Positions 1,281 to 19,885 of a stretch of 36,505 bases of DNA are shown here, in pieces. The stretch spans positions 1 to 36,505 of the forward strand of contig VBKG01000226.1 in assembly GCA_005879585.1 (NCBI GenBank), read 5' to 3'. This DNA is from Deltaproteobacteria bacterium. GTDB taxonomy: Bacteria > Desulfobacterota > Binatia > DP-6. The notes below the pieces were generated by a model. It saw only the letters and a list, made by a program, of their open reading frames with translations, was not told the DNA's origin and did not search any database. The translations under genes were made by a program, and so were the position numbers. Each line of letters opens with the position of its first letter. Position 1 is the stretch's first letter.

Positions 1281-1994
1281 ATGAACCCGTGCGCGCCCGT
1301 GACGCGCGCGCTCGACATCGTGGTCCCGATCCGCAACGAGGTGGACAGCATCGACGAGTTCCATGCGCGGGTCGAGCGGCTCGGCCTCGCCGACGCCCTG
1401 ATCTTCGTCGACAACGCTTCCACCGACGGCACGCTCGAGCGCCTGGCGGCCTGCCCCCGCGTGCGCGTCATCCGCCACGCGACCGACGAGGGCTGGGGCG
1501 CCTCGATGCGCGACGGGATCGCGGCATCGGACGGCGAGCTGATCGTCATCATCGACGCCGACCTGGAGTATCCTCCGGAGGCGATCCCGCGGCTGCTGGA
1601 GGCGTTACGGGAGCACCCCGTGGTGTACTGCTCGCGTTTCCGCGGAGCGCGACCACCCGACATGCCGCTCTTCCGCCGCCTGGGCAACGCGTGGCTGTCA
1701 CGACTCTACAACGTGCTCTTCCACCAGCACGTCACCGATTTCGCCACCGGCATGAAGGGGCTCCGTCGCGGCGCCCTGCCGCTCGAGCGGCTCCGGCGGA
1801 AAGGCTTCGAGCACGGCGCGGAGATCGCCGCGCTGGTCGCCCTCTCCGGGCACCGGATCGAGGAAATCGCGGTCGAGTACGCCCCGCGCCGGCGCGGCCG
1901 GTCGAAGATGCGTCACCTCCGCGAGACGATGAAGGTGGTGTGCTATCTTCTGTGGTACCGCCTCCGCGGGCGCGTGGGCGGCATGAGCAGCTGA
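1281..1994 (+). CDS. Family 2 glycosyltransferase (dolichol-phosphate mannose synthase-like)
   Basis: A cytoplasmic GT-A fold glycosyltransferase of 237 aa that moves a sugar from a nucleotide donor, probably to a lipid or polyprenyl phosphate. Visible motifs are the N-terminal VVPIRNEVDSI, the nucleotide-binding VDNASTDGT, and the DxD-type metal site DADLEYPPE. A later FATGMKGLRR segment is typical of DPM1/GtrB-like enzymes. The basic C-terminus (RRRGRSKMRHLRETMK) and the following hydrophobic YLLWYRLRG suggest peripheral membrane contact, but there are no C-terminal transmembrane helices. GTG at 1278 just before ATG 1281 is an alternative start. It faces the radical SAM gene tail to tail. 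Acceptor and donor are unknown. Confidence 0.85.
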   Translation: MNPCAPVTRALDIVVPIRNEVDSIDEFHARVERLGLADALIFVDNASTDGTLERLAACPRVRVIRHATDEGWGASMRDGIAASDGELIVIIDADLEYPPEAIPRLLEALREHPVVYCSRFRGARPPDMPLFRRLGNAWLSRLYNVLFHQHVTDFATGMKGLRRGALPLERLRRKGFEHGAEIAALVALSGHRIEEIAVEYAPRRRGRSKMRHLRETMKVVCYLLWYRLRGRVGGMSS

Positions 1995-17940: not shown

Positions 17941-17984
17941 TTGACAGTACGTTCAGAATATTCTAAACGCTCTGCACAGAGCGT
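17941..17984 (+). promoter_or_regulatory. Promoter and double palindromic operator of the GbsR-type operon
   Basis: A perfect -35 box TTGACA (17941-17946) is followed, 17 bases on, by a weak TAAACG. Two palindromes overlap the start region. The first, CGTTCAGAATATTCTAAACG (17950-17969), has one mismatched pair. The second has perfect 8-base arms, ACGCTCTG and CAGAGCGT, around a CA centre (17967-17984). They end five bases before the ATG of the regulator gene. The arrangement fits autoregulation by the winged-helix protein encoded next; the second could also be an RNA hairpin. Confidence 0.6.
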
Positions 17985-17989
17985 ACGCT

Positions 17990-18526
17990 ATGGATCGTAC
18001 GACCGGCATCTTCGTCGACGGCATGGGGGCCGCCGCCGCCACCTCGGGGATCCTGAACCAGCTCCAGGGCCGCATCTTCGCGCTCCTCTACCTGCAGCCC
18101 GGGCCTCTCTCGCTCGACGAGATCGCCACCGAGCTCGAGCAGAGCAAGAGCAACATCTCGGTCAACATCCGCGGCCTCGTCGACTGGCACCTGGTGCGAC
18201 GCAGCCGCGTTGGCGGGTCGCGCCGCGACCAGTACGAGGCCGCCGCCGACTTCTGGCGCGTCATGCAGGAGATCATGGAGCGTCGCTTCCGCTGGAACGT
18301 GCGCCAGGTGCTCGCGACCATCGATGAGACCGAGCGCGCGGTCGAGGAGGAGCGCGGGCGGCGCGACTGGGTCCAGTTCGTCACCACGCGTGTCGCGGGA
18401 CTGCGAGCGTTCTTCGCCGCCATGGACGCGGGGTTCGGGGCCTTCGCGCATGGCAAGCCGCTCGATCCCGCCGCGCTGAAGCACCCGCTGCTGGCGGCGG
18501 TCCCCCGGCCGCGCCCGCGCGGGTGA
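17990..18526 (+). CDS. GbsR/MarR-family transcriptional regulator
   Basis: A 178-residue DNA-binding protein. The start FVDGMGAAAATSGI...QGRIFALLYLQPGPLSLDEI and the helix-turn-helix LEQSKSNISVNIRGLVDWHLV followed by the wing RRSRVGGSRRDQYEA are typical of the GbsR branch of winged-helix regulators. The C-terminal half is helical (IMERRFRWNVRQVLATIDE, with Glu/Arg-rich coil) and probably dimerises. It lies directly behind two palindromes and 12 bases before the NnrU-like gene, so it likely controls itself and the three genes after it. There is no strong ribosome site and a short leader. The signal sensed is unknown; GbsR proteins in other bacteria respond to choline or osmotic conditions. Confidence 0.87.
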   Translation: MDRTTGIFVDGMGAAAATSGILNQLQGRIFALLYLQPGPLSLDEIATELEQSKSNISVNIRGLVDWHLVRRSRVGGSRRDQYEAAADFWRVMQEIMERRFRWNVRQVLATIDETERAVEEERGRRDWVQFVTTRVAGLRAFFAAMDAGFGAFAHGKPLDPAALKHPLLAAVPRPRPRG

Positions 18527-18538
18527 AAGGAGGAATCC

Positions 18539-19354
18539 ATGGAACCCGCATTGACCGTCGGTCTCCTCTGGCTCCTCTTCGGCGGGCTGCACATCGGGCT
18601 CGCCACGCGGCGCCCACGCGCCGCGCTCGTCGCGCGCCTCGGCGAGCGGGGCTTCACGACGCTCTTCTCGCTCATCGCCGCGGTGATGTTCGTCGTGGTC
18701 GTCCGCTTCTATGCGAACCACCGCCTCGAAGGGGCGCCTGGCCTGGCGCTCGGCGATGTGGCCGCGCTCCGCTGGCCCCTCATGGCGATGATCGGCTTCG
18801 GGATCGCGCTGGCGCTCGCGTCGCTCGTCTCGTCGTACGCCGCCTCGCCGATGGCGATCCTCACGCACACGGTGCGGCCGCCGCACGGGCTCGAGCGCAT
18901 CACGCGCCACCCGTTCTTCATGGGCTTCGCGCTCGCCTCGCTGGCGCACGTGCTCCTCGCGACCCGGCTGGTCGGCGCCGTCTTCCAGGCGGGGATCGCG
19001 ACGGTGATGATCGTCGGCGCCTGGCACCAGGACCGGAAACTCCTCGTGCTCCGCGGCCGGCCGTACGAGGCGTATCTGGCCGCGACGTCGGCCGTGCCGT
19101 TCGTCGCGATCCTCGCCGGCCGCCAGCGTCTCGTGTGGCGCGAGCTTCCGTACGGCGCGCTCGCGGCGTGCGCCGCCATCGCGGTCTCACTGCGGGTCGT
19201 GCACGGCGCGATCTTCGACCACGGCGGCGCGTGGGTCATCGTGGCGACGCTCGGGGGCGCGGCCGGGGCAGGGCTGGCGAGCGCCTGGCACGCGCGGCGC
19301 CGGCGTCGAAGGCTGCCCGATGCAGCCGGTCTCGCGGGCAGACCGGCCGCCTGA
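18539..19354 (+). CDS. NnrU-like / isoprenylcysteine methyltransferase-like membrane protein
   Basis: A 271-residue integral membrane protein with about six or seven hydrophobic helices. GLLWLLFGGLHIGLAT opens it, and PPHGLERITRHPFFMGFALA contains the RHPxxxG-type motif shared by NnrU and the ICMT/PEMT-like methyltransferases. DRKLLVLRGRPYEAYLAATS is the conserved cytoplasmic segment that follows. NnrU was named for a gene near nitrite/nitric-oxide reductases; its reaction is unsettled. An excellent ribosome site (AAAGGAGG) precedes ATG 18539. It is the first structural gene of the GbsR operon; the tail (RRRRRRLPDAAG) is basic and cytoplasmic. Confidence 0.8.
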   Translation: MEPALTVGLLWLLFGGLHIGLATRRPRAALVARLGERGFTTLFSLIAAVMFVVVVRFYANHRLEGAPGLALGDVAALRWPLMAMIGFGIALALASLVSSYAASPMAILTHTVRPPHGLERITRHPFFMGFALASLAHVLLATRLVGAVFQAGIATVMIVGAWHQDRKLLVLRGRPYEAYLAATSAVPFVAILAGRQRLVWRELPYGALAACAAIAVSLRVVHGAIFDHGGAWVIVATLGGAAGAGLASAWHARRRRRRLPDAAGLAGRPAA

Positions 19355-19363
19355 GCGGCGCGG

Positions 19364-19881
19364 GTGATTCCCTACGCATGGGGGGCGACCGAGGCGGAAC
19401 GCGCGGCCGCCTTTCCGTGCGACCGGCATCTGGTACCCGCCGACGAGGCCGTCTTTCGCGCGGTCGACGTCGACGCGCCCGCTGCGGTCGTGTTCCGCTG
19501 GCTCTGCCAGCTGCGTGTGGCGCCGTACAGCTACGACTGGATCGACAACTTCGGACGGCAGAGCCCGCCCCAGCTGACACCGGGTCTCGACGACCTCCAG
19601 CGCGGCCAGACGGTGATGGGGGTCTTCGAGCTCGTCGACTTCGAGCGGGACCGCCACCTGACGGCGGTGACGCGGCCGAGCGTGCTCGACGGCGTCTTCG
19701 GGCGGTTCGCGGCGAGCTACGTCGTCGAGCCGCGTGGCGATACCCGCGCGCGGCTCGTCGTGAAGGTCCTCGTCCGCTATGGTCGAGGGCCGATCGGGTG
19801 GTTGACGCGCGGGCTCTTCCCGTGGGGCGACCTCGTGATGATGCGGAAGCAGCTCCTCAACCTGAAACGCCTGGCGGAGAC

Positions 19882-19885
<4 letters not shown>
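19364..19885 (+). CDS. SRPBCC (START/Bet v 1-like) domain protein
   Basis: A 173-residue soluble protein with the SRPBCC helix-grip pattern: FRAVDVDAPAAVVFRWLCQL (first strand and helix), YSYDWIDNFGRQSP, a GQTVMGVFELVDFERDRHLT hairpin, AASYVVEPRGDTRARLVVKV strands and a long C-terminal helix ending LNLKRLAET. Such folds bind hydrophobic ligands in a deep cavity. The GTG at 19364 lies 9 bases after the NnrU-like stop, and its own stop overlaps the next start (ATGA, 19882-19885). Three proteins that could act on or sense a membrane-associated small molecule are thus made together. The ligand is unknown. Confidence 0.75.

Follow-up and report, generated by a model that had tools for sequence, protein, structure and literature searches.

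The locus and its genes

The window, that is, the whole stretch of 36,505 nucleotides analysed here, has a GC content of 71%. It carries a gene for a GbsR-type regulator that is preceded by two palindromes, dyad 1 and dyad 2, and followed by an nnrU gene. The features discussed below are as follows:

17941–17983, + strand: conserved 43-bp element, a predicted promoter-operator (position 1 = 17941), defined from 20 aligned elements
17941–17946, + strand: putative -35 box TTGACA; TTGAC is present in 17 of the 20 aligned elements
17950–17969, + strand: dyad 1, predicted operator, CGTTCAGAATATTCTAAACG, 9 of 10 pairs, core TTCAGAATATTCTAAA at 17952–17967
17964–17969, + strand: putative -10 box TAAACG, after a 17-bp spacer, supported by conservation in the 20 elements
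17967–17984, + strand: dyad 2, ACGCTCTG-CA-CAGAGCGT, perfect 8+2+8 inverted repeat, judged coincidental
17970–17976, + strand: CTCTGCA, a degenerate third 9-bp-phased unit (3 of 5 to TTCnnAA); the +18 offset is enriched in two sets
17990–18526, + strand: ORF of a GbsR-type MarR-family regulator, 178 aa (P0001), MarR_2 domain, ATG at 17990
18539–19354, + strand: nnrU, gene for an NnrU-family membrane protein (Pfam NnrU, 1e-17)

In a domain search the 178-aa regulator matched MarR_2 (4.6e-8), and by sequence its nearest solved structure is MJ223 (1ku9, 8e-11). The CudC model matched it at 5e-14 and 52.5 bits, below the equivalog cut-off of 218 bits, and matched no second protein in the regulator's own genome. 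On these sequence matches the protein is assigned to the GbsR-type subfamily of MarR regulators, and not to CudC itself. The helix residues S52, N55, and S57 were invariant when four members of its group were compared with five cyd-type regulators. The C-terminal part is poorly conserved relative to the cyd-type group.

Only 12 bases separate the stop codon of the regulator from the ATG of nnrU, and in many relatives nnrU also lies behind the regulator; it is likely a co-transcribed target. Among NnrU relatives (nine sequences) the histidines H18, H124, H137, H163, and H222 are invariant. A Polyketide_cyc2-like gene (weak match, 19364–19885) follows nnrU after 9 bases and possibly belongs to the same transcript in this species. 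The linkage to cytochrome bd or cydDC genes that characterizes the CydE/CioR functional group was not found; the partner here is nnrU, and in relatives DUF2867 or DUF6463 genes.

Dyad 1 is set apart by composition, uniqueness, and conservation

A near-perfect 20-base palindrome in front of the regulator and a perfect 8+2+8 inverted repeat adjoining it had been reported in the original prediction, and both were confirmed. Dyad 1 has a single mismatch (C17954/A17965), and dyad 2 overlaps it by 3 bp. In the window, perfect 8+(0–4)+8 repeats number 20, where 40 Markov sequences gave 16.7 on average (sd 4.9), and gapless 20-mers in which 9 or more of 10 pairs match number 11, where 7.7 were expected from Markov sequences; window-wide, neither dyad is therefore special by its symmetry. 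As dyads of similar kind are about as frequent as chance predicts, symmetry was rejected as evidence by itself. At the local composition, at least one perfect 8-arm repeat per 150 bp occurred in 1.85% of the simulations. What makes dyad 1 stand out is its composition (13 of 20 A/T; the other ten listed near-perfect 20-mers are GC-rich), its uniqueness within its genome, and its conservation.

A search of 98 genomes turned up relatives of the regulator in 17, counting the genome of the window itself, and a genome-contig collection gave seven loci, two of them repeating loci of the 98-genome search. Counting L015 and L027, which are one contig, as a single locus, the 25 rows represent 24 distinct regulator loci. 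In 19 of these 24, the 300 bp upstream contain TTGACAGnACGTTCAGAATATTCTAAACG with 20–28 of its 28 letters matching, a count that, like the others given here, is not independent because the loci are related by descent. Conservation upstream of orthologous regulators, on which the original prediction depended, is thus found for dyad 1; it does not extend to dyad 2 (see below). Among the loci without the element, a series of TTCnnAA units precedes the upstream gene of a likely operon in L022 and L024, and stands directly before the regulator in L025; upstream of the distant relative L017 the element was looked for and none was found. A second regulator copy in G041 (L053/L020, G041:C180) is interrupted close to its start by an in-frame TAG and is preceded by a degraded element (20 of 28 letters); it looks like a decaying paralogue.

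Twenty elements were aligned, leaving out G011 and AC_12, the 29-mer of which is identical to that of AC_67. Information is concentrated in positions 1 to about 43, and the flanks carry little. The consensus containing dyad 1 reads TTGACwGAACGTTCAGAATATTCTAAACG+TTC..AACGTACAG. When up to 3 mismatches were allowed, a scan of 148 genomes of the class found the element in nine (reversed control, 0), all of them among the 17 regulator-bearing genomes. In 145 genomes, a looser promoter-operator pattern with up to 1 mismatch had 14 matches, spread over 11 genomes that all have a regulator orthologue; at 2 mismatches the extra matches were no commoner than in the reversed control. The window's own genome has the core at one promoter only, with another 1-mismatch match on contig C81.

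These distributions bear on the idea that another protein, for example a TetR-type repressor, acts on dyad 1 and that the GbsR-type regulator is merely its target. The outer AACGTT parts of dyad 1 may resemble TetR-type operators, and two weak pattern matches (L116, L122) are similarly designed promoters before other ORFs. Nevertheless, the element with up to 1 mismatch is confined to genomes with an orthologue of this regulator, unit series of this kind stand before GbsR-type genes of other phyla as well, and the GbsR-type protein CydE was footprinted on the same core, according to the available text of its description (PMC6096048). We therefore regard a foreign repressor as unlikely.

A putative promoter overlaps dyad 1

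The promoter is read from its 17-bp spacing and from conservation: TTGAC is missing only from G003, G041b, and AC_67, and the -10 letters are kept in 18 (T24), 20 (A25), 20 (A26), 19 (A27), and 20 (C28) of the 20 elements. A consensus promoter scan listed no promoter at the element, because TAAACG, with 3 of 6 letters of TATAAT, is a weak -10 box. That dyad 1, as a predicted operator, overlaps the promoter spacer and the -10 box is well supported by the alignment.

Around the centre 19|20, 11 of the 13 counted pairs are kept in 12–19 of 20 elements, and pair 8–31 in eight. In 18 of 20 elements pair 14–25 does not match, since every element has A at position 25, and this invariant A25 (A17965) occupies the second place in the putative -10 box TAAACG. 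G011, which has lost the regulator, has an intact palindrome at this pair (TTCTGAACG). We read the fixed mismatch as a compromise with the -10 box, operator and promoter apparently sharing bases.

The element might also be no operator at all and simply a strong promoter, TTGAC and TAAAC being among its best-kept letters. This we consider very unlikely: the 17-bp spacer, which is free in ordinary promoters, is here conserved with near symmetry and agrees with a footprinted site, and other promoters have the units as well, there downstream of TATA-like boxes.

Transcription would start at about 17976, about 7 bases past the -10 box. The resulting leader of about 14 bases has no Shine-Dalgarno sequence, in agreement with the earlier remark that it lacks a clear ribosome site. 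In three relatives only 6–8 bases lie between the -10 box and the ATG, so short leaders occur in the group.

Dyad 2 is not conserved

The pairs of dyad 2 (six of eight are covered by the alignment) hold in 3–7 of 20 aligned elements, and the dyad is absent from the same-genus copy of the element. Its right arm falls on a conserved stretch, element positions 35–43, which by the alignment is conserved as a direct-repeat unit and not as dyad 2. The centre of dyad 2 (35.5) is out of register with the 9-bp-phased centres 28.5 and 37.5, and the dyad overlies the degenerate third unit.

Two proteins competing for the site, one on each dyad, had been put forward, and the dyads do touch; since neither the same-genus copy nor the remaining aligned elements keep dyad 2, we give this possibility almost no weight. 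The second proposal combined an operator with an RNA hairpin in the leader. Its operator part is upheld for dyad 1 by conservation and by the overlap with spacer and -10 box. As DNA, dyad 2 does offer perfect 8-bp arms and a 2-base gap, yet two bases make a tight loop in RNA, and the left arm (17967–17974) overlaps the -10 box and lies upstream of the presumed start, so that, if the promoter reading is right, no leader hairpin would form. RNA folding, which had been suggested as the test, gave structures no stronger than those of shuffled sequences (z +1.27 and +0.12). A leader hairpin or attenuator would need transcription of both arms and a fold stronger than chance; here the left arm would lie outside the transcript, and no such fold was found. 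With the dyad not conserved either, we think a hairpin extremely improbable. Dyad 2 was accordingly rejected as second operator or hairpin on non-conservation, register, and folds, and from the alignment we judge it to be a local coincidence, a sequence accident of this species.

A 9-bp series of TTCnnAA units

From position 12 the consensus reads TTCAGAA-TA-TTCTAAA-CG-TTCAGAA. In the 20 elements the TTCnnAA score at offsets 0, +9, and +18 was 4.75, 4.45, and 3.3 of 5, compared with 1.03 ± 0.26 in the flanks. When 15 distant promoters, many of them mutually related, were anchored on the first two units, +18 was the top offset outside the anchor (3.4 versus 1.34 ± 0.33; next 2.33). This set comprised six of ten plasmid loci, leaving out L098 and L100 (near copies), L094 (no dyad), and L099 (archaeal), and nine of 15 other loci, leaving out L077, L078, L079, L080, L088, and L090. 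In the window, the series at 17952 had the top score (14.5) with both strands scored.

The unit score was chosen after the first sets had been seen, and a set of ten GbsR/MarR loci was the only fresh test. Five of these loci beat all 200 shuffles, one reached 0.02, and four lay at 0.06–0.33. The five are among the six loci closest to the cyd-linked query, and none of the four more distant loci beat all 200 shuffles; the pattern is therefore a feature of certain branches of the family, not of all. Low unit scores were also obtained for L080, L088, L090, and L082. The series thus precedes many, not all, other GbsR-type genes, other phyla included.

It is conceivable, although we would back it slightly less readily than its opposite, that GbsR-type regulators of several phyla share an operator code of TTCnGAA-like units every 9 bp, in which two units form the dyad, a third and sometimes a fourth extend it, and stacked dimers read the series. 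The series would slide relative to the promoter between lineages and would here have merged with the -10 box, one fixed mismatch being the price. If true, such a family-wide pattern would make target genes of GbsR-type regulators predictable from sequence. In the open-access literature searched, no report of a direct-repeat operator for GbsR was found, and the CydE core string was found nowhere beyond a single paper.

The element at other loci

In G036 the element precedes nnrU at another locus (L070) and not the regulator (L015), an arrangement in favour of action in trans. Three copies are present in G037, one in front of the regulator, one in front of a DUF6463 gene (L057), and one in front of a remnant of the regulator and the dehydrogenase gene behind it (L056/L074); a weak palindrome match in this genome (G037:C149) was judged by direct reading of the locus. 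In G003 the DUF6463 gene lies directly behind the regulator, and in L041 and L025 a DUF2867 gene follows it. In G011 (L058/L069) the element is kept before nnrU and the regulator has decayed to a remnant. The predicted targets in environmental genomes are thus nnrU, DUF6463, and DUF2867 genes, functions not found for GbsR-type regulators in the available portions of the literature compared.

Several further observations were made at these and other loci. At L041:5363–6094, in the second copy of G001, a molybdopterin oxidoreductase gene lies behind the regulator and the DUF2867 gene. At L058:3583–3835 (G011), the remnant is N-terminal, and the operator-like site before the divergent, intact nnrU is nearly fully symmetric. 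L059, L067, L068, L072, and L073 were rejected as further operators, having no TTGAC at the right spacing, and so was G137 (L071/L120), where the match letters are TTTGCTCCATG... and TTGAC is lacking. L116 (around 1501–1529) and L122 (around 1501–1529, reverse strand) have TTGAC-17-TAAACG with CCTACTAAACG shortly before the ATG of other genes, which resembles the present promoter-operator layout but uses a different motif; these genes are perhaps TetR-type regulators. In Methylobacterium (L108:1950–2000) a GbsR/MarR-like gene has a long, different palindrome, GTTATTTCTGTTATGACAGAAATAAC, reaching from just before the annotated start codon to past it.

Proposed mechanism and comparison with known systems

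We consider it highly probable that dyad 1 is the operator of the downstream GbsR-type regulator and serves promoter-embedded autorepression of regulator and nnrU. At the sequence level, conservation, spacing, co-occurrence, and the match to the published CydE footprint support this prediction. In the scheme that we infer for promoter, binding, repression, ligand, and second dimer, a regulator dimer would read TTCAGAA-nn-TTCTRAA in the promoter spacer and across the -10 box. Once bound, it would keep RNA polymerase off or stop promoter opening, and such occlusion would thereby repress the regulator itself together with nnrU. Some ligand would release the regulator. The 9-bp TTCnnAA series reaches the start site and could seat a second dimer. 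The case would illustrate the use of the same bases by an operator and a -10 box.

GbsR-type regulators are described as poorly characterized, and in the available descriptions their operators vary from member to member. The closest parallel is CydE of Alishewanella sp. WH16-1, a GbsR-type repressor with a DNase footprint at the cydE operator, which controls cytochrome bd and is released by sulfate, according to the accessible text (PMC6096048). In the same portions, the footprint TATTTCAGAAATTTCTGAAAGTTCA with its core TTCAGAAATTTCTGAA has the half-site and spacing of the dyad 1 core and runs on in register as TTCAGAA-AT-TTCTGAA-AG-TTCA (PMC6096048). TTCAGAATATTCTAAA matches the CydE-type core TTCAGAA-nn-TTCTGAA at all specified letters but one (A in place of G at 17965). 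Unlike dyad 1, the second footprinted site of CydE, GGGATGCGCATATGCAAAT, appears there without the motif (PMC6096048). As proposed for the present regulator, CydE is described as encoded in an operon under its control; the partner here, in contrast, is nnrU, and the putative operator lies inside the core promoter (PMC6096048, in part).

The extracts from PMC7396694 describe GbsR and OpcR of Bacillus subtilis as GbsR-type repressors acting on A/T-rich inverted repeats. OpcR blocks its promoter, as we propose here, whereas B. subtilis GbsR differs in forming a roadblock downstream of the start and in controlling choline/glycine betaine functions; none of the strings tried for its operator letters was found in the text searched, and the operator of MJ223 of Methanocaldococcus jannaschii is given as not known (PMC7396694, in part). 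GbsR and OpuAR are described, in partly available sources, as sensing choline or betaine via an aromatic cage. CioR of Chromobacterium violaceum has cytochrome bd genes as partners, unlike the nnrU found here, and feedback control is described for both CydE and CioR (PMC6096048, PMC11837568, both in part). A link to respiration or nitrogen oxides would be a guess by analogy, based on relatives linked to cyd genes and on the name of the NnrU family. By the same analogies, autorepression by promoter occlusion as with OpcR, with feedback as with CydE and CioR, appears the most likely mode of action of the present regulator.
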